Shown here piece after piece: positions 3,156 to 18,530 of a stretch of 36,883 bases of DNA. The DNA is from an uncultured Opitutaceae bacterium (lineage in GTDB: Bacteria > Verrucomicrobiota > Verrucomicrobiia > Opitutales > Opitutaceae). The stretch spans positions 1 through 36,883 of the forward strand of contig CALFNN010000033.1 of assembly GCA_937902925.1 (NCBI GenBank), written 5' to 3'. Both the position numbers and the translations under genes were made by a program. The notes below the pieces were generated by a model. The model searched no databases. It saw nothing but the letters and a program-made list of their open reading frames with translations, and was not told the origin of the DNA. Positions within the stretch are counted from its first letter, which is position 1, and each line of letters opens with the position of its first letter.

Positions 3156-3187
3156 TCAGACGTGTGCATGTGACGGTCGACAAGAAA
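3156..3187 (+). repeat. Short intergenic repeat between P1 and P2
   Basis: Positions 3159-3175 carry GACGTGTGCATGTGACG, the same motif as at 516-533 minus one G. It occupies most of the 32-nt gap. The matching motif ahead of two consecutive ADOP genes suggests that the gene was duplicated together with its upstream spacer. Confidence 0.4.
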
Positions 3188-5920
3188 ATGAAACTCTTCC
3201 GAAAATTCCGCGCCTTCTTCCGCAAGGAAAAACTCGACGCCGAGATGAGCGAGGAGATGCGCGCGCATCTCGAGTTGCAGGCGACGGAGAATCAAAAGCG
3301 CGGCATGTCGGCGGACGAGGCGCGCTACGCTGCGCAGCGGGCGTTTGGCGGCGTGGAGCAGATCAAGGAGCGCGCGCGCGACGAACGTCGCCGGGGCTGG
3401 CTCTGGCTCGACCAGTTGACGCAGGATCTGCATTACGCGTGGCGGCAGTTTCAGCAGGCGCCTGGCTTCGTCGCCGTCGCGATGCTGAGTCTTTCACTGG
3501 GGATCGGCGCTACGACGGCGCTGTTCAGTGTGGTCAACGAGGCCCTGTTCAAGCCGCTGCCCGTCCCGCATGCGCGTGAGCTCGTGCGTTTCACGTGGGC
3601 AGGCAACCTGGGTCAGATCGACAGTTCGTTTTCGGACGTGGTGGGCGACGGACCCTCCCATTGGACGGGTGCGAGTTTCTCTTTCTTCACCGCGCAACGC
3701 TTTCAGGAGCAGGATCGTCTATTGCAGTCGCTCTTCGTGTTCACCTCGATCGGCGGGCATACGATCGTCGCTGACGGACAGGCGGAGGAGGCAGGCACGG
3801 GCGACTACGTTTCGGCTGGCTACTTCGAAGGGCTGGGCGTGCGGGTCTCGCTCGGCCGCGCGCTGGGCGTGGCGGACGATCGCGCGGACGCCCCGCTGGC
3901 CGTTGTGCTTTCGGATGCCTACTGGCGGCGGCGTTTTGGCGGCGATCCGGCGGTGATCGGGAAGACGATTCTCGTGAACTTGAACCCGGCAACAATCGTC
4001 GGCGTGGCGCCCGCGGAGTTTCGGGGCGTCGGAGCTTTCGGACGGAAGGCGGCCCTATTCCTGCCGCTGGCGAGCGTCGAACGCATCAATCCCGGAGCAT
4101 TCGACCTGACTGCTCGCCCCGGCTTCCGCTGGGTGTTTGGCGTCATGGGCCGCCTGCGGCCCGGAGTCAGCGCGACCAAGGTAGAGGCGGAATTCGCGGC
4201 GACTTTTCAGCGGAGCATCGTCGACAACGCCCGACTTTCCGGCGCGCAGCATGTTTGGGCGGAGGGTCTGCCCCCGGATTTTCCGCGGCTGAAATTGAGG
4301 CCGGGCAGCAACGGCGGCGAGTTCGTCGTGCTTCGCGCGGGAGGCGAGCTGGCGGTGTTGGCGGCGCTGGCGGGCACGATGCTGCTTATCGCATGCACCA
4401 ATGTCGCGAACCTCCTGCTCGCGCGGGGCGCGGCCCGCCGCCGCGAAATTGCCGTGCGCCTTGCACTCGGGGCCGGGCGCGCGCGACTCTTGCGGCAATT
4501 GCTGACCGAGGCTCTGCTGCTGGCGGGCGGTGGCGGAGCGCTCGGGGGGCTTTTCGCGTGGTGGGGCGGCGACGCGCTCGCGGCGATGTCCCGCTTCAGC
4601 TCGGTGGGGCACATCGAGCCGGATTGGCGCGTTTTCGGATTTGCGGTCGTGGCGTCGACCCTCACCGGCGTCCTGTTTGGGCTGGTGCCCGCGCAGCGGG
4701 CGACGCGGATCGACCTTAATGTCGAGTTCCAGGGAGGGCCGCGGACGACGGGCAGCCGTTCCGCGCTGCGGCTGGGCAAGACCTTGATGATGGTGCAGGT
4801 GGCGCTTTCGTTTGTCGTCCTCGTCGGCGCCGGACTCTTTGCCGCCACGCTGCGCAATCTGCGCGCCGTCGATGTCGGGTTTCCGCGCGAGCGCTTGTGG
4901 GTGTTTGAACTTGCCGCCAATTCCGCCGGGTATCGGGGCGAGCGTGCCGCGGCGCTGTTCGAACGGGTGGCAGCCGGCCTTCATGAGTTGCCGGGCACGC
5001 AGACGGTCGCGGTTTCCACTTTTCCGCTCGTCGCCGGGCAGGGCACCATCAACGGCGGAAGGATCGATGGCACCCCGGCGGGAAGCAGCGTCTCCGTTGC
5101 CGTGAACGAAGTCGGCGGCGATTTCTTCGCCACTTTCGATCTGCCCACGGTCGAGGGACGGACGTTTACGGCGCGGGACGATTCGAGCGCGCCGAAGGTC
5201 GCCGTCGTCAATCGCGCGCTCGTGGAAACGATTTTCGGCCACGAAAGCCCGCTCGGCCGCCGGATCCGCTTTGCGAACACGGTGGCGACGGTCGTGGGCG
5301 TGGTGCGTGACGTGAAATACGACAAGGTGCGCGAGGCAGTGCCGGCGACCATCTATTTGTCGTTGGGGCAAGGCACCGGCGGACGCGCATCGTTCGCGGT
5401 GCGGTCGGCCGCGGCACCGGCGGTGCTCGCCTCCGGCATTCGTCGCGTGGTGCACGGAATCGAGCCGAACCTGCCCGTGCTGGATCTGCGCACCCAGGAC
5501 GAGCAGATCGAGCGTCTCTTTGGAACCGAGCGGATGTTCTCCCGGCTTTCGATCCTTGTTGGCGGCGTCGCACTCTTGCTCGTCTCGGTCGGGCTCTACG
5601 GACTGATGGCCTACGCCGTGGCCCGGCGCACCGGCGAAATCGGTGTGCGCATGGCGCTGGGAGCATTGCCCGGCCGCGTGTTCGCGATGATCGTGCGCGA
5701 GTCGCTCGCGTTCGTCGCAGCCGGTCTCGTCGTCGGAGTTGCGACGGCATGGGCCGCGACGCGCCTGATCGCCAGCCTGCTCTTCGGCCTGACGCCGACC
5801 GATCCCCTGACTTACTGCGGCGTGGCGCTGCTCCTCGGGTTCGTCGCATTGCTGGCAATCTGGCTGCCCGCGCGCCGCGCGGCGAAGGTCGATCCGATGG
5901 TGGCGCTGCGGGCGGAGTGA
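3188..5920 (+). CDS. ADOP-family duplicated ABC permease P2
   Basis: A 910-residue permease. The reading frame stays open upstream to 3152, overlapping P1, but the ATG at 3188 gives MKLFRKFRAFFRKEKLDAEM, matching the prefix start of its paralogues, so it was chosen. The prefix is type A (HLELQATENQKRGMSADEAR; FGGVEQIKERARDER). First membrane helix about 92-115. The first FtsX module is near 388-450 (LLIACTNVANLLLARGAARR), and the C-terminal module ends LPARRAAKVDPMVALRAE. At the DNA level, 3266-3367 is almost identical to 6111-6212 in P3, after which the two genes diverge sharply. Second in the PadR1 block. No clear ribosome binding site. Confidence 0.91.
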   Translation: MKLFRKFRAFFRKEKLDAEMSEEMRAHLELQATENQKRGMSADEARYAAQRAFGGVEQIKERARDERRRGWLWLDQLTQDLHYAWRQFQQAPGFVAVAMLSLSLGIGATTALFSVVNEALFKPLPVPHARELVRFTWAGNLGQIDSSFSDVVGDGPSHWTGASFSFFTAQRFQEQDRLLQSLFVFTSIGGHTIVADGQAEEAGTGDYVSAGYFEGLGVRVSLGRALGVADDRADAPLAVVLSDAYWRRRFGGDPAVIGKTILVNLNPATIVGVAPAEFRGVGAFGRKAALFLPLASVERINPGAFDLTARPGFRWVFGVMGRLRPGVSATKVEAEFAATFQRSIVDNARLSGAQHVWAEGLPPDFPRLKLRPGSNGGEFVVLRAGGELAVLAALAGTMLLIACTNVANLLLARGAARRREIAVRLALGAGRARLLRQLLTEALLLAGGGGALGGLFAWWGGDALAAMSRFSSVGHIEPDWRVFGFAVVASTLTGVLFGLVPAQRATRIDLNVEFQGGPRTTGSRSALRLGKTLMMVQVALSFVVLVGAGLFAATLRNLRAVDVGFPRERLWVFELAANSAGYRGERAAALFERVAAGLHELPGTQTVAVSTFPLVAGQGTINGGRIDGTPAGSSVSVAVNEVGGDFFATFDLPTVEGRTFTARDDSSAPKVAVVNRALVETIFGHESPLGRRIRFANTVATVVGVVRDVKYDKVREAVPATIYLSLGQGTGGRASFAVRSAAAPAVLASGIRRVVHGIEPNLPVLDLRTQDEQIERLFGTERMFSRLSILVGGVALLLVSVGLYGLMAYAVARRTGEIGVRMALGALPGRVFAMIVRESLAFVAAGLVVGVATAWAATRLIASLLFGLTPTDPLTYCGVALLLGFVALLAIWLPARRAAKVDPMVALRAE

Positions 5921-5928
5921 ATCCCATG

Positions 5929-6028
5929 AATCGTTCTCTTTCTCTTAATCGTTCTCGTAGTCGGTCTGAAATTCGCTGCACCAATTCCGAACGAGAGAAC
6001 GAGAACGATTAAGAGAACGAGAACGATT
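5929..6028. repeat. 100-bp intergenic palindromic element, copy 1
   Basis: Arms at 5929-5958 and 5999-6028 are reverse complements over 30 nt with one mismatch, separated by a 40-nt loop. Each arm contains the unit ATCGTTCTC twice (or its complement), so the arms are also internally repetitive. A homologous element with partly conserved loop sequence occurs at 15831-15928. The right arm ends 4 nt before the P3 ATG. An RNA hairpin of this size could stabilise the upstream P2 message and limit translation of P3. No protein is encoded, and the short spacing rules out an insertion sequence here. Confidence 0.85.
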
Positions 6029-6032
6029 GGCT

Positions 6033-8723
6033 ATGAACCCACTCCGCCAACTCCGCGCGCTGTTTCGCAGGGGAAAACTCGACGCCGAGATGTCCGAGGA
6101 GATGCGGACGCATCTCGAGTTGCAGGCGACGGAGAATCAAAAGTGCGGCATGTCGGCGGACGAGGCGCGCTATGCGGCGCAGCGGGCTTTCGGCGGCGTG
6201 GAGCAGATCAAGGAACGGGCTCGCGATGTGCGTGGTTGGCGCTGGCTCGAGGAATTTTTCCAGGACTTGCGGCATGGCGCGCGGCTGCTGCGCCGGAATC
6301 CCGGGTTCGCGGCAGTCGTGGCGTTCACGCTGGCGCTGGGCATCGGCGTCAACACCGCCGTCTTCAGCTTCTACGGCGCGGTCGTCTTGAAGCCGCTCGC
6401 CGTCCGTGCGCCGGAGCAGGTCGTGCGCCTCGTGACCTGGGAGCGCGACCGCTGGAACGATGCCTTCGCCTATGCGGAGTTCGAGGATGTCGCGGCGCGT
6501 GCGAAGTCTTTCTCCGCGGTCATCGCCACGTCCCCGCAACAGCTCATGCAGGCGGTGAAACCCGGCACAGATGCGACCGCGCCGGAGACGATGGCCGTGC
6601 GGCTGGTCTCCCCGAATTATTTCAGTGCGCTCGGCGTCGTGCCCTTTCTCGGTCGCGCGCTTGGGCCGGACGATGCCACGGCGTGCGTGCTGAGCTACGA
6701 GTCGTGGCAGCGGCGTTTCAACGCCGATCCAGCGGTCATCGGGCAGACGCTGCGGCTGCAGAACGCGGTGGTGGCGATCGTCGGCGTCGCGCCGAGAGCG
6801 TTTGCCGGCACGGGGCGGCCGGCGCCGGTGCCCGATCTTTGGGTGCCGCTCGCACGGCAACCGGCGCTCCTGCCGACGGTCGACTGGCTGCACGATCCGG
6901 CGTCGCGTTCGTGGCAGATCCTCGCGCGCCGCCGGTCGGGCGTGACGCTCGAACAAGCCGATGCCGAACTCGATGTGCTCGGCCACACTTGGCCACAGCC
7001 CGACGGGAAGGCGATCCGACTCGCCGCGCGGAAGGCGACGCTGTTCGAGGTGGATTATCCTGAATTCAAGGCGGTCTGCGCCGTCCTGATGGCGGCGGTG
7101 GCGATGGTCCTGGTGATCGCGGGCGTGAACGTCGTGAACCTGCTCGCGGCGCGCAACACGGCGCGCACACACGAGCTCGCGATGCGGCGGGCGCTGGGCG
7201 CGGGGCGTTACCGGCTGGTGCGGCAGCTTTGCACCGAGAGCATCCTGCTCGGGCTGCTCGGCGGGGCGGGCGGACTGGCGCTGTCGGGCTGGGCGTGCGA
7301 GTTCATCAACGCGGGGATCGGCGGGATGGTGCAGAGACTTTCCGGCGGCGCCGTGAGCGTGGCGCTGGATGTTGCGCCCGACTGGCACGTGCTGGTCTAT
7401 GCAATCGGCGTGTCGGTGTTCACCGGCGTGGCGGTGGCGGTCTGGCCGGCGCTGCGCGCGACGGGCGGAAGCCTGGAGGCGCAGTTGAAACTCGCGGCGG
7501 GTGGGGTCGGCGCGGGCGGCGGCGGAACGTGGCGCCGGCGCAATCTCCTGCTCACGGTCCAGGTTGCGGCATGCCTGCTGTTACTGGCCGGCGCAGGGCT
7601 GCTGTTCCGCGGCGCGTCCCACGCGTTGAGCACCGATCCCGGCTTCGACGCGAAAAACGTTTTCCTGCTGCGGATCAATCCCGACACGGCCGCGCCCAAT
7701 CCCGCCGCGCACGTGGCGCTCCTGCACGCGGTGGCCGCCCGGGTCGCGGCGCTGCCCGAGGTGGACCGGCTGGCGTGGTCGGAGCGCGCGCCCTACATGG
7801 GGCATGGCATCTCCCCGTTTCTGACCGATGAAGGGCGGTGGGTGAACGGTTGCGTGATAAATCGCGGCACGGCCAGCTATCTGAAAACCCTCGGCATTCC
7901 GCTGGTCGCCGGCCGTTCGTTTTCCAAGCAGGAGGAGGAAACGGGCGCGCCGGTGATGATCGTCAGCCAGTCGGCGGCGCGCCGGCTCTGGCCCGGCCGC
8001 GATCCGCTCGGCCGCCGGCTCGTCTACCCCAAGAAAAATCGCGATGGCAGCCGCGACAGCTACACGGTGATCGGGATTGCGCAGGATGCGCGGCTGACCC
8101 TCCTGTCCCAAGTCGACGCCATCGATTTGTTTTTCCCTCGGGCCATCTCGGCTGACGGGCTGTTCCTCGTGCATACGCGCACGCCGCCGCCGGCGGCCTT
8201 CCAGTCGACGTTCGCGGCGTTGCGGGGACTCGACCCGACGCTGCCGTCGCAATCGCTGATCCTGAGCATGGAGGAGGGGCCGATGCAGTTCCAGCGGCTC
8301 TGGGCTGCGGCGCCGGCGGTGTTCGCCTCGCTCGTCGGCGCGATTGCGCTGGTGCTCGCGTCGGTGGGAATTTACGGCGTCGTGTCGTTTCTGGTGGCGC
8401 GGCGCACGCGCGAGATCGGCGTGCACCTGGCGCTCGGCGCGCAGCAGAGCGACATCATCCGGCTCGTGCTGCGGCAGACGCTGCGGCCGGTGGGGTGGGG
8501 TGCCGCCATCGGGCTCGCCGGCGCGGTGGGCTTTTCGGTTTTGATCACGCGGCTCGTGCTCAACCCTGAAATCCCCGACCTGACCTATGGCGCCGGCGCG
8601 TTTCCCTCGGCGACGCTCCTTGGTGTGCTGGCGCTGCTGCTGGGCGTGATTCTCCTCGCAGCGTTCATCCCCGCGCGCCGCGCCGCGCAGGTCGATCCCG
8701 TGATTGCGCTGCGGGCGGAATAG
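6033..8723 (+). CDS. ADOP-family duplicated ABC permease P3
   Basis: An 896-residue permease starting MNPLRQLRALFRRGKLDAEM; an in-frame TTG at 6027 lies inside the upstream palindrome and is less likely. The prefix is type A (THLELQATENQKCGMSADEA). First membrane helix about 91-113. The first FtsX module is near 349-410 (VIAGVNVVNLLAARNTARTH, then ELAMRRALGAGRYRLVRQL). The canonical ACANVAN signature is altered to AGVNVVN, so this module has drifted from the consensus. The C-terminal module carries SVGIYGVVSFLVARRTREIG and ends FIPARRAAQVDPVIALRAE. The stop codon TAG (8721-8723) overlaps a GTG that could start P4. Confidence 0.91.
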   Translation: MNPLRQLRALFRRGKLDAEMSEEMRTHLELQATENQKCGMSADEARYAAQRAFGGVEQIKERARDVRGWRWLEEFFQDLRHGARLLRRNPGFAAVVAFTLALGIGVNTAVFSFYGAVVLKPLAVRAPEQVVRLVTWERDRWNDAFAYAEFEDVAARAKSFSAVIATSPQQLMQAVKPGTDATAPETMAVRLVSPNYFSALGVVPFLGRALGPDDATACVLSYESWQRRFNADPAVIGQTLRLQNAVVAIVGVAPRAFAGTGRPAPVPDLWVPLARQPALLPTVDWLHDPASRSWQILARRRSGVTLEQADAELDVLGHTWPQPDGKAIRLAARKATLFEVDYPEFKAVCAVLMAAVAMVLVIAGVNVVNLLAARNTARTHELAMRRALGAGRYRLVRQLCTESILLGLLGGAGGLALSGWACEFINAGIGGMVQRLSGGAVSVALDVAPDWHVLVYAIGVSVFTGVAVAVWPALRATGGSLEAQLKLAAGGVGAGGGGTWRRRNLLLTVQVAACLLLLAGAGLLFRGASHALSTDPGFDAKNVFLLRINPDTAAPNPAAHVALLHAVAARVAALPEVDRLAWSERAPYMGHGISPFLTDEGRWVNGCVINRGTASYLKTLGIPLVAGRSFSKQEEETGAPVMIVSQSAARRLWPGRDPLGRRLVYPKKNRDGSRDSYTVIGIAQDARLTLLSQVDAIDLFFPRAISADGLFLVHTRTPPPAAFQSTFAALRGLDPTLPSQSLILSMEEGPMQFQRLWAAAPAVFASLVGAIALVLASVGIYGVVSFLVARRTREIGVHLALGAQQSDIIRLVLRQTLRPVGWGAAIGLAGAVGFSVLITRLVLNPEIPDLTYGAGAFPSATLLGVLALLLGVILLAAFIPARRAAQVDPVIALRAE

Positions 8724-12510: not shown

Positions 12511-12549
12511 GGTGGGGAGGGCGGCGGCGGGCATTGTCGGATGATACTC

Positions 12550-12595
12550 CCCTTGACATCCGATGGGAGTCGTGATTCCCATCGGACGTCAAGGG
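12550..12595 (+). promoter_or_regulatory. Operator-like inverted repeat and likely promoter of PadR2
   Basis: Arms CCCTTGACATCCGATGGGA (12550-12568) and TCCCATCGGACGTCAAGGG (12577-12595) match as reverse complements at 18 of 19 positions, with an 8-nt centre that is itself partly symmetrical. The left arm contains TTGACA at 12553-12558, a consensus -35 hexamer. The sequence 17 nt downstream (TTCCCA) is a poor -10, so the exact promoter is uncertain. The element ends 22 nt before the PadR2 ATG. It shares only the CTTGAC core and architecture with the palindrome upstream of PadR1, which suggests two separate recognition specificities. Confidence 0.7.
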
Positions 12596-12617
12596 AAGCG
12601 AACCTCCGATCACGACC

Positions 12618-12956: not shown

Positions 12957-12972
12957 AAACCACGAACCTTGC

Positions 12973-13050
12973 AACGCGGAGGACGCGAAGAGCGCCGAGA
13001 AAAGAATAACCAATTACCGATCACTCCGCGATCTCCGCGCCCTCCGCGTT
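12973..13050. repeat. Imperfect inverted repeat between PadR2 and P5
   Basis: Arms at 12973-12999 and 13024-13050 are reverse complements at 23 of 27 positions, around a 24-nt A+T-richer centre. Each arm is built from CGCGGAG-like units, giving a strongly purine-biased left arm and pyrimidine-biased right arm. It ends 13 nt before the P5 ATG. It differs in sequence from the 5929 and 15831 elements but occupies the same kind of site and probably has a similar effect on mRNA folding. Confidence 0.7.
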
Positions 13051-13063
13051 TCAAACCAGCCCC

Positions 13064-15820
13064 ATGAGTCCGCTCCGCAAACTTCGTGCGCTCTTCCGCA
13101 AAGAAAAACTCGACGCCGAGATGTCCGAGGAGATGCGGCTGCATCTCGAGCAGCGGACGCGGGAGAATATCGCGAGTGGCATGGCGCCGGAAGACGCGCG
13201 TTACGCGGCGCTGCGGAAATTCGGCGGAGTGGAGCAGGCGAAGGAACGCGCTCGCGAGCAGCGGGGGTGGATGTGGCTGGAGCAAATCGGGCAGGATCTC
13301 CGTTTCGCGGTGCGAATGCTGTGGAAAACGCCGGGCTTCACGGTCACCGCGGTGCTGACGCTGGCGCTTGGGATCGGGGTGAACGCGGCCTTGTTTGCGA
13401 TCTACGACTTCGCGGCCCTGCGGCCGTTGCCGAGCCGGGAGCCGGATGAATTGGTGGAGTTGCGCGCACGCGAAAGCAAGGTGTCCGGCGGGATCGACCC
13501 GCGGTTTTCCTACCTGGACTACCTCGACTACTGCGCCGGCACGAAGGCATTTTCCTCCATCGCCGCGGTGCGGTCGAACCTGGTGCGCCTGCCCGACGGG
13601 CTTGCGTCGGAAACCGGGTCGCCGTTGGAATCCGGACCGGGCATCGTCGAGGTGCAGGCGGTTTCGGGAAATTATTTCTCCACCCTGGGCGCGGAGATGG
13701 CGCTCGGCCGCGATTTCCTGCCCGAGGAAGCGGGCGCGCATGCCGGCCTGCCTGTCATGGTGGTGAGCTATCTGTTTTGGCAGACCCACCTCCACGGCGA
13801 CCCCAACGTGCTGGGCCGGACGTTGACGGCGCTGGATCGCCGCGGCACCGGCCGCAGCGTCTGCACGATCGTCGGGGTGACGGCGCCGGATTTTGTCGGA
13901 CAGAAGCCGGTGCCGCCGGCGGGTTGGATTCCGCTGACGGCGAATCCCGCGGCGCTCGGCGACCGGAAGCAGCCGTTCGTCTCGCTGATCGGACGGATGC
14001 GCGTGGGGGTTTCGCCGGCGCAAGCCTCGACGGATCTCAGTTTGATCGCCGAACGACTCGGCCAGCTCTATCCCCAGGAGCGACGCGCGGCTTGGGTTGC
14101 CCTGACGCCGGGGATGAGGGTGACCGACGTCGCGATGAATCCGCAGTTCGCGCTGGCCATGTCGCCGGTGCTGATCGGTTTCGCGCTGGTGCTCGTGATT
14201 GCCTGCCTGAACGTGGCGAACCTGCTGCTCGCGCGCGGGCTCGCCCGGCAACACGAGATCGGCGTGCGGTTGGTCCTCGGGGCGGGCCGCGGGCGGATCG
14301 TGCGGCAGTTGTTCGTGGAGAATTTCCTGCTGTGCGTGCTGGGCACGGGCGCCGCGCTGCTATTCGCGGTCTGGATGCTGCAGGCTTTCAAGCCCGTGGT
14401 CATGTCGATGCTTTCGGGTGAAATCGAGGTGCGGAATTCCCTGGCGATGGTCGACCTCAGCCTCGACCGGCGCATCGTTGGGTTCGGTGCGCTGCTGGCG
14501 GCGATCGCGGGCCTGACGGCGGGATTGATGCCGGCACTGCACTCGGTGCGGCGCGACGGAATCTTCGCGCTGAAGCACGACGGCTCGGCGTTCGGCCGCA
14601 GGATGACACCGTCGCGCGTGCGCAACCTGCTGCTCGTCGGCCAGGTCGCCGTCTGCCTGACCATGCTGGCGGTTTCGGGGATCATGACCGGCAGGCTCCT
14701 GCAGGCGCGCCGCGGCGAAGCGGGGTTTTCCACCGACAATGTCTATCAGGTGGGACCCGCCGCCTTGGGCCCGGTCGGAACCATGTGGTCCAGCGATCCG
14801 CTCGGGGCCGTGGAAACGCTGCGTTCACTTCCCGGCGTGGCCTCGGCGGCGGTGGTGGCCGCGACGCCGCTGCGCAAACCGGGGGGCAATGTCAGCTCGC
14901 TGCTCGTGAAAGTGGCCGGGGGAAGCCCGGACAAGATCAGCTACAATCGGATTTCGGCAGGATTCTTCGAAACGTTCGGCGTGTCCGTGCAGCGCGGCCG
15001 GGGCTTCACGCCGCGCGAGGTCGCGCTCGGCGCATCGGTCGTGGTCGTGAGCGAGGCCGCGGCGCAGTGGCTGTGGCCGGGGCGGGAGGCGGTGGGGCAG
15101 TTCCTGGCGGTCGATGCCGGGACACTGGATCGCGCCGGCGGCGCCGGAGGCGTCAAGTCGAACCAAAATTACCGGGACTGCGAGGTCATCGGGGTGGTGC
15201 GCGACATCAAGAGCAACTGGTCGGAGGACGGCGAGCCGCGGTTGTTGTGGTTTCCGCTGCCGGCGACGGGCGCCACCGGGAGCATCTTTGTGCGGTTGCA
15301 GGTGGATTCCCCCGGAGCCTTGCGTGCCATCGAACGCGCGACGAACGAAGCCGGGCTGCCCGTGCAGTTCCAGGAAAGACTGGCGGCGATCGTCGACCGG
15401 GGACTGACCCCGTTCCGGGCGTTTGCGGGATTGAGCGCGGCGCTCAGCGGCTTGGCGCTCGTGCTGGCGACGGTCGGACTCTACGGCGTGATGTCGTTCG
15501 GGGTGAACCAGCGGGTGAGGGAAATCGGCGTGCGTCTGGCCCTCGGCGCGACGGCGGGGCGCGTGACCGGGTTGTTCGTGCGCCAGGGCATGAGGCTCGT
15601 AACGTCGGGCGTGGTGATCGGACTCGCCGGCGGCGCGGCCTTCGCGGTGCTGCTCAAAAAGGCGCTGCCCGGCGCACGCTTTGTCAGCGACGTGGCATTT
15701 TGCTGCGAAGTGTTCGCAGTCGTGACGCTGTTTTTGGCGGTCGTGGCGCTGATCGGTTGCTGGCTGCCGGCGCGACGGGCGGCGAAGGTCGATCCGATGG
15801 TGGCGCTGAGAGCGGAGTGA
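13064..15820 (+). CDS. ADOP-family duplicated ABC permease P5
   Basis: A 918-residue permease, the longest here. The prefix is type B (KLDAEMSEEMRLHLEQRTRE; FGGVEQAKERAREQRG). First membrane helix about 91-113. The first FtsX module is near 366-435 (VIACLNVANLLLARGLARQH; EIGVRLVLGAGRGRIVRQLF). The second periplasmic domain contains a Gly/Ala-rich insertion near residues 686-700 (DAGTLDRAGGAGGVKSNQNY) not seen in the paralogues, which accounts for part of the extra length. The C-terminal module has ATVGLYGVMSFGVNQRVREI and ends LPARRAAKVDPMVALRAE. First permease under PadR2. Confidence 0.91.
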   Translation: MSPLRKLRALFRKEKLDAEMSEEMRLHLEQRTRENIASGMAPEDARYAALRKFGGVEQAKERAREQRGWMWLEQIGQDLRFAVRMLWKTPGFTVTAVLTLALGIGVNAALFAIYDFAALRPLPSREPDELVELRARESKVSGGIDPRFSYLDYLDYCAGTKAFSSIAAVRSNLVRLPDGLASETGSPLESGPGIVEVQAVSGNYFSTLGAEMALGRDFLPEEAGAHAGLPVMVVSYLFWQTHLHGDPNVLGRTLTALDRRGTGRSVCTIVGVTAPDFVGQKPVPPAGWIPLTANPAALGDRKQPFVSLIGRMRVGVSPAQASTDLSLIAERLGQLYPQERRAAWVALTPGMRVTDVAMNPQFALAMSPVLIGFALVLVIACLNVANLLLARGLARQHEIGVRLVLGAGRGRIVRQLFVENFLLCVLGTGAALLFAVWMLQAFKPVVMSMLSGEIEVRNSLAMVDLSLDRRIVGFGALLAAIAGLTAGLMPALHSVRRDGIFALKHDGSAFGRRMTPSRVRNLLLVGQVAVCLTMLAVSGIMTGRLLQARRGEAGFSTDNVYQVGPAALGPVGTMWSSDPLGAVETLRSLPGVASAAVVAATPLRKPGGNVSSLLVKVAGGSPDKISYNRISAGFFETFGVSVQRGRGFTPREVALGASVVVVSEAAAQWLWPGREAVGQFLAVDAGTLDRAGGAGGVKSNQNYRDCEVIGVVRDIKSNWSEDGEPRLLWFPLPATGATGSIFVRLQVDSPGALRAIERATNEAGLPVQFQERLAAIVDRGLTPFRAFAGLSAALSGLALVLATVGLYGVMSFGVNQRVREIGVRLALGATAGRVTGLFVRQGMRLVTSGVVIGLAGGAAFAVLLKKALPGARFVSDVAFCCEVFAVVTLFLAVVALIGCWLPARRAAKVDPMVALRAE

Positions 15821-15830
15821 GGACCAATGC

Positions 15831-15928
15831 ATCGTTCTCGTTCTCTTAATCGTTCTCGTAATCGGCCTGAAATCCTCCGCTCCCTTTTCAAACGAGAGAA
15901 CGAGAAAGATTAAGAGAACGAGAACGAT
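15831..15928. repeat. Intergenic palindromic element, copy 2
   Basis: Arms 15831-15859 and 15900-15928 are reverse complements at 28 of 29 positions, with a 40-nt loop. Arms and parts of the loop (TCGG, CTGAAAT) match the copy at 5929-6028, so the two are one family. It fills the gap between P5 and P6 and ends 10 nt before the P6 ATG. Conserved stems with variable loops favour a structural role in DNA or RNA over a coding one. Confidence 0.85.
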
Positions 15929-15938
15929 TTCCTAGAAG

Positions 15939-18530
15939 ATGAAACTGCTCCGAAAACTTCGCGCGCTGCTCCGCAGGGGAAAAATCGAGGCCGAGATGTC
16001 CGAGGAGATGCGGCTGCACCTGGAGCGGCGGACGGAGGAGAATGTCGCGGCTGGCATGCCGGCGGATGAGGCGCGCTACGCGGCGCTGCGAAAATTCGGC
16101 GGCGTGGAGCAGGCGAAGGAGTTGGCACGCGACCAACGGCCGTGGCGCTGGAGCGACGAGGTGGTGCAGGACGTGCGCTACGGCCTGCGGCAACTCGGGC
16201 GGAATCCGGGATTCACGACTATCACGGTGTTGACGCTCGCACTCGGGATCGGTGCGAACACCGCGATGTTCAGCGTGGTCAACGCGGTCCTGTTGCGCCC
16301 ACTGCCGTATCGCGATCCGGACCGGCTGATGATGCTCGACGAAAAGTGGCAGCCCCGCTTCTCGCATTTCGAGGCGACGGTCAGGGATGTGCTCGCCTGG
16401 CAGGAACAGAGCCGCAGCTTCGCGGCGCTCGCGATGTATGGGAATGCGACGTTCAACCTGACCGGCGACGACCGGCCCGAACGGCTGACGGGTGCCCGCG
16501 TGGGCACCAATCTGCCCGCGCTCCTGGGCGTCGAGCCGGCACTCGGCCGCGGCTTCGCGCCCGAGGAAGCCGCCCCGGGCAAGGACAACGTGGTGCTGTT
16601 GAGCGATCGGCTGTGGCGGCGGCGCTTTGGTGGCGACTCGCGCGTCCTCGGCACCGCCATCCGGCTCAATGGTGCGAGCTACACCGTCATCGGAGTCATG
16701 CCGGCTTCGTTCGATTTCCCCTCGGGCGCCGAGCTCTGGAAGCCGATGGGAATCTCCGATCGGGACTTGACGACCGGGCACTTCGTGTGGGCCGTCGCGC
16801 GCCTGCAACCGGGGGTGACGCCCGCACAGGCGCAGGCCGAACTCGACGCGATCCTGCAGGGAGTGCAGCCGAAATACGTGTGGAGCGCCAACGTCGTCCC
16901 GCTCCCGGAATATTTCGTGGGCGACGTGCGGCTGGCGCTCATGCTGCTGCTCGGCGCGGCCGGCCTCGTGTTGCTGATCGCGTGCTCGAATGTCACCAAT
17001 CTGCTGCTGATGCGGGCGGCGGTGCGGCGAAACGAGATTCTGCTAAGGGCCTCGCTCGGCGCGAGCCGCGATCGCATTGTGCGGCAATTGCTAACGGAAA
17101 CGCTGCTGCTAGCGTTACTCGGCGGTTGCGGCGGTCTGGTGCTCGCGTTTGGTGCGATGCAGTTCGTGAAGTCGCTTCACCTCGCCGGCATCCCGCGGCT
17201 CGAACAGGCGTCGCTGGATTATCCCGTGCTGCTGCTCACGCTGATCGTCTCGACACTCACCGGGTTGCTCTTCGGCCTCGTGCCTGCCTTCCGGCTCTCA
17301 CGCGAAGATTTTGCCGGGGGGCTGAAGACGAGGAACGGCATCGGCGCGACGGCCGCGCGACCGTGGATGCGCCATGCGCTCGTCGTCTCCGAGCTGGCGC
17401 TGGCGCTCGTGCTGCTGACCGGCGCGGGGCTGCTGCTGAAAAGTTTTTCACGGCTCAACGCCGTGCCGCGTGGGTTCAATCCCGAGAGCGTCCTGACCGC
17501 GAAAGTCGGGCTGCCGGCCGCCGGCTACAACGAGCCCGCGCGGCAGACGCAGTTCGTGGAACGATTGCTCGAGGGCTTGCGCACTGCGCCGGAGGTGCGC
17601 GCGGTCGCGGTCTCGACGGGCCTGCCCTTCGCGAACGCGGACGATGCCGGCATCGCGTTCGACGGTCGCGACGCCGGTTCGCCGCTCGTGGGCACCACGG
17701 CCAACTATTACCGCGTGAGCCCCGCCTATCTCGCCGCGCTGCAAATTCCCCTAAGCCGCGGGCGCCTTTTCACCGAGGCCGATATCGCCGGGCGGCCACC
17801 GGTTGTCTTGATCAATGAGACGATGGCGCGCCGGTTTTTCCCCGACGTCGATCCGATCGGGCGGAAGCTGGACATCGGCGGGCCGACCTACATGCGGGAA
17901 ATCGTCGGTGTCGTCGGCGACGTGAAGCAGGCCGGCTTGAAAACACCGCCGGCTCCGCAGGTCTACGAGCCGTTCGCGCAGAAGCCGGGGCGTTCCTTCA
18001 ACATCGTCGTGCGCGGCACGGGCGATCCCGCGCGCCTCGCCGAAACGATCCGCCGGTCCGTGCTGGCCCTCGACGCCAATCTGCCGGTCTCCGATGTCCG
18101 GACGATGAGCGATCGCGTCGAGGATGCGCTGACGCGCGACTGGTTTTCCGTCTTTCTGCTAGGGCTGTTCGCCGCGCTGGCGCTCGTGCTGACGGCGGTC
18201 GGCATCTACGGCGTGATCGCTTATTCGGTCACACAACGCACGCGCGAGATCGGCATCCGGCTCGCGCTCGGCGCCACTCCACGCGGCATCCTGCAACTCG
18301 TGGTCGGGCAAAGCCTGCGCGTGGTGGCCATCGGGCTCGCGATGGGGCTGGTCGCGGCCCTGGCGCTGTCGCGCGTGTTCGGCAGCCTGCTCTACAATGT
18401 GGCCCCGCGCGATCCGATCACGTTTGCCGCGGTGCCGCTGCTCCTGCTCGGGGTTGCGCTGATGGCGACGTTTCTTCCCGCCCGTCGCGCCGTGCGCGTC
18501 GACCCCCTCGAGACGCTTCGCGCTGAATGA
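15939..18530 (+). CDS. ADOP-family duplicated ABC permease P6
   Basis: An 863-residue permease. The prefix is type B (KIEAEMSEEMRLHLERRTEE; NVAAGMPADEARYAALRKFG). First membrane helix about 91-113, followed by the first periplasmic domain with FAPEEAAPGKDNVVLLSDRL. The first FtsX module is near 335-405 (LLIACSNVTNLLLMRAAVRR; SLGASRDRIVRQLLTETLLL). The C-terminal module has TAVGIYGVIAYSVTQRTREI and ends LPARRAVRVDPLETLRAE. P7 starts only 4 nt after its stop, so P6 and P7 are almost certainly cotranslated. Among the permeases here this one looks closest to a textbook ADOP in length and motifs. Confidence 0.92.
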   Translation: MKLLRKLRALLRRGKIEAEMSEEMRLHLERRTEENVAAGMPADEARYAALRKFGGVEQAKELARDQRPWRWSDEVVQDVRYGLRQLGRNPGFTTITVLTLALGIGANTAMFSVVNAVLLRPLPYRDPDRLMMLDEKWQPRFSHFEATVRDVLAWQEQSRSFAALAMYGNATFNLTGDDRPERLTGARVGTNLPALLGVEPALGRGFAPEEAAPGKDNVVLLSDRLWRRRFGGDSRVLGTAIRLNGASYTVIGVMPASFDFPSGAELWKPMGISDRDLTTGHFVWAVARLQPGVTPAQAQAELDAILQGVQPKYVWSANVVPLPEYFVGDVRLALMLLLGAAGLVLLIACSNVTNLLLMRAAVRRNEILLRASLGASRDRIVRQLLTETLLLALLGGCGGLVLAFGAMQFVKSLHLAGIPRLEQASLDYPVLLLTLIVSTLTGLLFGLVPAFRLSREDFAGGLKTRNGIGATAARPWMRHALVVSELALALVLLTGAGLLLKSFSRLNAVPRGFNPESVLTAKVGLPAAGYNEPARQTQFVERLLEGLRTAPEVRAVAVSTGLPFANADDAGIAFDGRDAGSPLVGTTANYYRVSPAYLAALQIPLSRGRLFTEADIAGRPPVVLINETMARRFFPDVDPIGRKLDIGGPTYMREIVGVVGDVKQAGLKTPPAPQVYEPFAQKPGRSFNIVVRGTGDPARLAETIRRSVLALDANLPVSDVRTMSDRVEDALTRDWFSVFLLGLFAALALVLTAVGIYGVIAYSVTQRTREIGIRLALGATPRGILQLVVGQSLRVVAIGLAMGLVAALALSRVFGSLLYNVAPRDPITFAAVPLLLLGVALMATFLPARRAVRVDPLETLRAE

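Follow-up and report, generated by a model that had tools for sequence, protein, structure and literature searches.

Gene-less hairpins between ADOP genes of an Opitutaceae bacterium are probably non-autonomous elements served by S23 proteins

What are the two 100-bp palindromes that lie between ADOP permease genes of an uncultured Opitutaceae bacterium, and what has spread them? The window analysed here (36,883 nt; contig C33 of a host genome that is 6.0 Mb and 95% complete) holds both (Table 1). Copy 1 (5929-6028) has 30-nt arms with one mismatch around a 40-nt loop, exactly the geometry given in the initial annotation. Copy 2 (15830-15929) has 29-nt arms (15831-15859 and 15900-15928), likewise with one mismatch and a 40-nt loop. 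The arms are arrays of hexads (e.g. TCGTTC, TCTTAA) with the consensus TCNTNN and not of the 9-mer ATCGTTCTC that had been read as the repeat unit. Four arm matches were found in the window, compared to 0 in 100 dinucleotide shuffles. As plus-strand RNA, copy 1 is predicted to fold at -48.7 kcal/mol (z -6.2) and copy 2 at -48.2 kcal/mol (z -7.6), and the stability of either element was reached by 0 of 200 shuffles. The two hairpins are real and far beyond chance. No Rfam family was found in the window at gathering score; the sole listed match, mir-2238, scored 21 bits relative to a gathering score of 52.2, and an Rfam identity for the hairpins was rejected.

Table 1. Positions of the two hairpin elements and of the ADOP permease genes on either side of them.
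Feature	Position	Strand	Detail or basis
Copy 1, left arm	5929..5958	+	hexads AATCGT TCTCTT TCTCTT AATCGT TCTCGT
Copy 1, loop, 40 nt, no gene	5959..5998	+	30/40 identical to copy 2 loop
Copy 1, right arm	5999..6028	-	30 nt, shared in full with the left-hand arm of the S23 gene-bearing element at C70:366397 of the host genome
Copy 2, left arm	15830..15859	+	inverted-repeat and arm matches
Copy 2, loop, 40 nt, no gene	15860..15899	+	loop comparison
Copy 2, right arm	15900..15929	-	inverted-repeat and arm matches
ADOP permease gene 5' of copy 1	3164..5920	+	TIGR03434, 818 bits
ADOP permease gene 3' of copy 1	6033..8723	+	TIGR03434, 685 bits
ADOP permease gene 5' of copy 2	13064..15820	+	TIGR03434, 644 bits
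ADOP permease gene 3' of copy 2	15939..18530	+	TIGR03434, 947 bits

The two copies occupy equivalent gaps, as had been noted from the sequence alone; each lies between two ADOP genes (TIGR03434) of the same direction. At copy 1 the upstream TGA stop is 8 nt before the arm and the next ATG is 4 nt past it. At the three other junctions where ADOP-like genes directly adjoin, the called gaps are -4, -1 and +4 nt, compared to 112 and 118 nt where an element is present, suggesting that about 100 nt were added to almost closed gaps. Because the loops are identical at 30 of 40 positions, the two copies are close kin. The same identity would be expected if the pair had arisen by duplication inside the ADOP array only. 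However, nine ADOP-like proteins of the window are 31-41% identical to one another, which is too divergent for a recent block duplication, and many further copies are present elsewhere in the host genome. When 3 mismatches are allowed, 12 host sites match the 30-nt arm; the 16-nt arm end with at most 1 mismatch matches 32, and the reversed-pattern control has none. The initial annotation, which spoke of two copies in its title, had named a find of only those two in a genome-wide arm search as the result that would count against it, and this did not occur. Array duplication is refuted by the wide dispersal together with the low ADOP identity, and we give it practically no weight.

Two other inverted repeats were seen in the window. 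A unit-built hairpin of a different family from the element at 5929-6028 lies at 12969-13054, flanked by an ADOP gene and the gene of a PadR regulator (TIGR03433); its 31-nt arms are 84% complementary and built of units like ACGCGGAGG. At 12547-12598, upstream of the PadR gene, there is a 25-nt inverted repeat (88% complementary, 2-nt spacer) that lacks repeat units.

Dispersal of the family extends beyond the host. The 16-nt arm end was present in 24 of 56 relatives, with a maximum of 63 sites per genome (control: one match overall), in agreement with the tentative mention of similar Opitutaceae repeats in the initial annotation. Arm-site counts per genome are complete and positions were available for part of the sites; 40 loci were taken from four genomes only (G023, G017, G029 and G024) and are biased to sites with both arms listed. 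In 37 of the 40, the strongest inverted repeat was a gene-less pair of the hexad family, 52-110 bp from arm to arm, and in the other three (L138, L156, L169) it was a different repeat. When genes were called with a codon model, 1 of 47 elements lay in coding sequence compared to 684 of 813 random windows, a placement result that rests on the model and its training on seven window genes plus miaB. Calling by longest ORF put more than half of the element in ORFs in 32 of 47 cases (random 785 of 813), with false genes in the G+C-rich DNA. This dispersal points to movement of the short copies, for which no site exactly empty of the element was recovered. By eye, target-site duplications seemed clear at C69, C70 and copy 1, but over 46 elements they did not exceed chance (mean 1.43 vs 1.27 shuffled, p=0.23). 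The C69 element (G000:C69; L015 1622-1712), a member of the hexad family, falls exactly at a break in methionine synthase: the match to metH (TIGR02082) runs to position 336 in the preceding gene and resumes from 339 in the following one, and MetH seems to be split into two genes there.

One copy in the host carries a gene between its arms. At C70:366397-366883 an arm pair spans 487 bp, and its left arm is identical over 30/30 nt to the right arm of copy 1. The protein encoded by this full-length member matches PF05635 (69.6 bits vs a cut-off of 33.8, 3.1e-19) and also TIGR02436, families labelled '23S rRNA-intervening sequence protein' and 'four helix bundle protein'; we refer to it as S23. 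To our knowledge PF05635 has long been recognized from rRNA inserts without a known function, and we know of no catalytic activity of S23. At least two structures of the family have been solved (2gsc, 2rld). The host S23 matches one of them, XCC0516 (2gsc; E 7.5e-8), which is a pentamer of four-helix bundles (PMC4990558), and the best matches of an AlphaFold model of the host S23 (pLDDT 83) were 2gsc and 2rld. The model also resembles Avd, both by itself and as part of the DGR ribonucleoprotein (4dwl, 8ub7 and others), with TM 0.64-0.69 and weak E values of 0.02-0.2; homology between Avd and PF05635 has already been published (PMC10053308). The S23 protein of Coxiella is seemingly not produced, according to the account in PMC4990558.

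The S23 copy of the hexad type has a constant address in the Opitutaceae. In nine genomes, judged by sequence, it lies between miaB (TIGR01574 in the host, 459 bits, cut-off 355) and a gene that has no NCBIfam match and looks like that of a small membrane protein. The S23 proteins of the eight other miaB-site genomes are 63-72% identical to that of the host, and S23 at this site is under purifying selection (pN 0.20, pS 0.77; pN<pS in 36 of 36 pairs), with synonymous sites near saturation. Of the 80 named loci, 36 have miaB next to S23, and all but one of these 36 belong to the 37 best matches. One fixed place by miaB argues that this copy is inherited and is not hopping.

The presence of this S23 subtype, defined by a 180-bit cut chosen in the present analysis, was associated with the number of short copies. 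Among 37 family genomes including the host, the eight with the subtype had a median of 45.5 arm sites compared to 1 in the 29 without it (p=0.0006, kinship ignored). Similarly, within one genus of 21 genomes, those with the subtype had 63, 42, 34 and 19 arm sites relative to a median of 2 in the 17 without (p=0.0035, kinship ignored). Four genomes of this genus had the complete S23 element in the miaB gap, and five had, judged by eye, a remnant there (an arm plus the last S23 bases). Genomes with the remnant had 0, 0, 0, 0 and 1 arm sites, although two of them are only 69 and 80% complete. The arms of the S23 element best matched the short copies of their own genome in all three genomes tested, with a small margin in one. 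Arm-rich family genomes that lack the subtype were also found (G017 with 43 sites, G030 with 26, G027 with 23 and G005 with 21), as was one in the 21-genome genus (G250, 48 sites), and one genome (G035) had the subtype and 0 arm sites. Ten of the other 12 genomes of the genus had, by eye, hairpins of other units in the miaB gap. In one Opitutaceae genus (L174-L187) this gap holds several unit families across species and resembles a hot spot.

Inverted arms built of short units are the usual setting of S23 genes. In the host, each of the five PF05635 matches is flanked in this way, with units that differ from one match to the next; one of the five scores under the curated cut-off. An arm score of at least 12 was reached at 47 of 62 S23 loci drawn from the host's own genome, its relatives and the phylum, compared to 6 of 244 windows shifted within those loci and 10 of 246 pairs of arms from different loci (highest score 60); the remaining 15 of 62 have no arms at that score. 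Arms were present in 17 of 20 further, mostly weaker family members (mock maximum 11 of 40) and at 75 of 78 S23 loci on named genome contigs (mock 7/280). The latter set comprised 78 of 80 loci, L258 and L273 being left out for short flanks, and three of its loci duplicate loci of the 20-locus set (L239=L111, L235=L112, L229=L113). On plasmids, arms were found at 12 of 12 loci (mock maximum 11 of 24) in records hand-picked for taxon spread from 39 that matched: nine from Cyanobacteriota and the others from Gemmatimonadota, Pseudomonadota and Bacteroidota. These plasmid S23 genes lie, for example, between cas6 and cas4, between cas10 and a cmr3-family gene, or between annotated ribonucleotide reductase subunit genes, and the cyanobacterial ones have arm units of 7 or 8 nt. 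One of the loci, in Azospirillum lipoferum, is inside a 23S rRNA gene (RF02541, 1090 bits) and has heptad arms of the same kind.

Two further arrays of heptads were recorded. On a plasmid of Anabaena sp. 90 (L312 300-660), a very long GGTGACA/GGGAACA array lies 5' of an S23 gene between cas6 and cas4. In the window, a lone arm of GTGAC heptads at 512-542 precedes the first ADOP gene, and the same unit builds the arms of another host S23 gene (C34:34978); the host has five sites with this unit including 512-542, plus the two arms of that gene.

The length of the unit follows the version of the protein. A 6-nt unit dominated at 79 of 81 loci in the host-S23 clade (76 of 78 without the three duplicates), and a 7-nt unit did so at 52 of the 58 arm-bearing S23 loci outside it; these counts, like the tree, omit loci without arms scoring at least 12 (3 of 84 in the host clade and 18 of 76 others). 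On a tree of 139 rows, unit-length labels required 6 changes compared to 47.3 when shuffled, with 0 of 200 shuffles as low, the tree having few columns and many weak forks, being built by a quick method and including loci reoriented by HMM score (11 of 160). The hexad is conserved as T, C and T at positions 1, 2 and 4 (92%, 92% and 95%), and its fit to TCNTNN is 0.95 compared to 0.61 for shuffled arms, where the phase was picked for best fit in both. TCNTNN hexads were found in records labelled Verrucomicrobiota, Kiritimatiellota, Lentisphaerota, Planctomycetota, Chlamydiota, Thermodesulfobacteriota and Myxococcota. The tie between unit length and S23 clade is what would be expected if S23 recognises the unit array, and is not proof of binding. 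On this comparison of sequences, it suggests that S23 recognises and helps to maintain the repeats.

Could the hairpin instead serve the host? It might act in mRNA processing or stabilising or as a terminator and be spread by recombination, S23 being a passenger gene in one copy. The strong RNA fold, the tight stop/start fit (8 and 4 nt at copy 1) and the 27 codirectional gaps among 42 elements with both neighbours called are consistent with such a role. However, elements also occupy 7 convergent and 8 divergent gaps, and compensation between the arms gave no clear signal within genomes. In the 21 of 43 elements that could be set in register, paired arm changes between genomes were strongly in excess (25 vs 9.3 shuffled), but within genomes there were 25 vs 21.1 shuffled, with 52 of 1000 shuffles as high. 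A passenger would explain neither the S23 genes between such arms in several phyla nor a unit length that follows the S23 clade. We consider a regulatory hairpin an improbable account of the family.

A second candidate is a REPIN moved by a TnpA-REP transposase (RAYT) encoded elsewhere, which would make the S23 link a bystander effect. REPINs share the plan of inverted, intergenic doublets in many copies (PMC3116915), and some Y1_Tnp match was present in 43 of 56 relatives. However, PF01797 had no match in the host genome (95% complete, 32 arm sites) or in G017 (43 arm sites), and across 37 genomes arm number was not correlated with Y1 number (Spearman 0.15, p=0.37). The GTAG/CGTC tag was found at 3 of 90 arm feet compared to 50 of 450 random 14-mers, and the arms are about 30 nt, unlike the mostly 6-9 bp stems described for GTAG repeats (PMC3733652). 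RAYT was rejected on the lack of a PF01797 match in the host, and we regard this candidate as very unlikely. The initial annotation had proposed a REP- or MITE-like element mobilised by a factor elsewhere and a search for TnpA-REP. Its REP- or MITE-like character stands, and so does the factor elsewhere, in the form of the same-armed miaB copy that encodes S23 (PF05635); TnpA-REP as that factor does not.

The resemblance to Avd raises a third alternative, a retroelement whose hairpin RNA would be the template of a host reverse transcriptase, with S23 in the role of the DGR accessory protein. Both the model comparison (TM 0.64-0.69, weak E) and the published homology (PMC10053308) agree with this, and the host genome does contain one RVT_1 match. 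Set against it, 8 of the 10 family genomes that have 20 or more arm sites lack RVT_1, and among these eight is one assembled as a single contig with 49 sites; RVT_1 (PF00078) was the one reverse transcriptase family covered by the search. A retroelement therefore seems to us an unlikely explanation. The only RVT_1 match of the host lies at G000:C104:198229-198801, and a GTGAC-heptad site is situated about 1.1 kb away at 199876. Because TnpA-REP and RVT_1 are each absent from some element-rich genomes, spread appears to need neither of them in every host, barring a loss of the genes after the spread.

We favour, with a probability of roughly 0.7, the reading that the 100-bp elements are gene-less, non-autonomous 'S23 hairpin elements' for which S23 serves in trans instead of a transposase. 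The sequences themselves show their membership through common arms, the hairpin architecture, the dispersal, the position between genes, the inheritance of the miaB copy and the tie between unit length and clade; the inverted arms are built of short units of the length typical of the S23 clade. What we infer beyond this is the binding of S23 to the arms, its need for spread, the insertion step and the processing of RNA. Each gene-less copy is two inverted arms of TCNTNN hexads flanking a loop. One full-length relative in the host has the gene of the presumed cognate S23 where the others have their short loop, and its position behind miaB is constant and inherited. The S23 ring may recognise the unit array of its own arms, as hairpin RNA or as single-stranded DNA, and may assist host enzymes in copying hairpins or inserting them between closely spaced genes. 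For the gene-less copies it would act in trans, much as RAYTs are proposed to do for REPINs. To name S23 and general host enzymes as the spreading agents is an economical guess. In transcripts, the hairpin is probably an RNase III substrate like the S23-encoding 23S rRNA insert (PMC4990558); by analogy with that insert and from the predicted fold, the long stem could be cut in this way.

Several known systems resemble the family in part. The 23S rRNA intervening sequences (IVS) with an S23 ORF in Coxiella burnetii and Leptospira likewise have stem-forming inverted ends around the ORF; in Coxiella the stem is 28 bp long, and GACAGAT heptamers are repeated in tandem ahead of the S23 gene (PMC4990558). 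In contrast, the window family lies between protein genes, has hexad units, and most of its copies are gene-less and dispersed. It does not have the 23S rRNA location of a strict IVS, the Rfam search of the window being negative and the copies being between protein genes. Mobility of the IVS had already been suspected, the ORF being seen as one component of it (PMC4990558, citing Ralph and McClelland 1993). Given the heptad arms in Azospirillum and the stem and heptamers in Coxiella, the rRNA insert and the dispersed hairpins look like one class.

Like REPIN/RAYT systems, the family combines many gene-less inverted doublets, dispersed in extragenic space, with one stable, same-ended gene per type (PMC3116915, PMC8266576), but its protein is S23 and not an HUH/Y1 transposase, and its hexad-array arms have no GTAG/CGTC tag. 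Like MITEs it has terminal inverted repeats, no coding capacity and a longer gene-bearing relative, but that same-ended relative encodes S23 and not a transposase, and target-site duplication was not above chance. O. terrae is a member of the Opitutaceae. Its genome is reported to be rich in GTAG REPs, described as mostly short, tagged stems that are often within genes there (PMC3733652), and these are other elements than the hexad hairpins. The STRR of cyanobacteria are 7-bp repeats that form intergenic hairpins, e.g. between hupS and hupL, and their function was given as unknown (PMC2670836). They resemble the S23 arms in being heptad arrays that form intergenic hairpins, and arms of S23 genes on cyanobacterial plasmids have units of similar length, but the units of the window family are 6 nt and not 7 bp. 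The STRR passages of PMC2670836 make no link to S23. In the open-licence literature we found no paper in which S23 genes outside rRNA are connected with inverted arms made of units, or with gene-less hairpins dispersed in a genome.

A broader proposal, which we put forward tentatively and hold to be somewhat more doubtful than not, is that S23 proteins are sequence-reading rings with a fixed unit per clade (6 nt, TCNTNN, or mostly about 7 nt). They would define one class of mobile hairpins, including the rRNA IVS, the Opitutaceae hairpins and perhaps STRR, that spreads without a dedicated transposase or reverse transcriptase. The tie between unit length and clade gives PF05635 proteins a concrete candidate ligand. 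It recasts a genome-wide repeat of these bacteria as a population served by a protein that is not a transposase, and several repeat families that have so far been unlinked, rRNA inserts included, may be joined.
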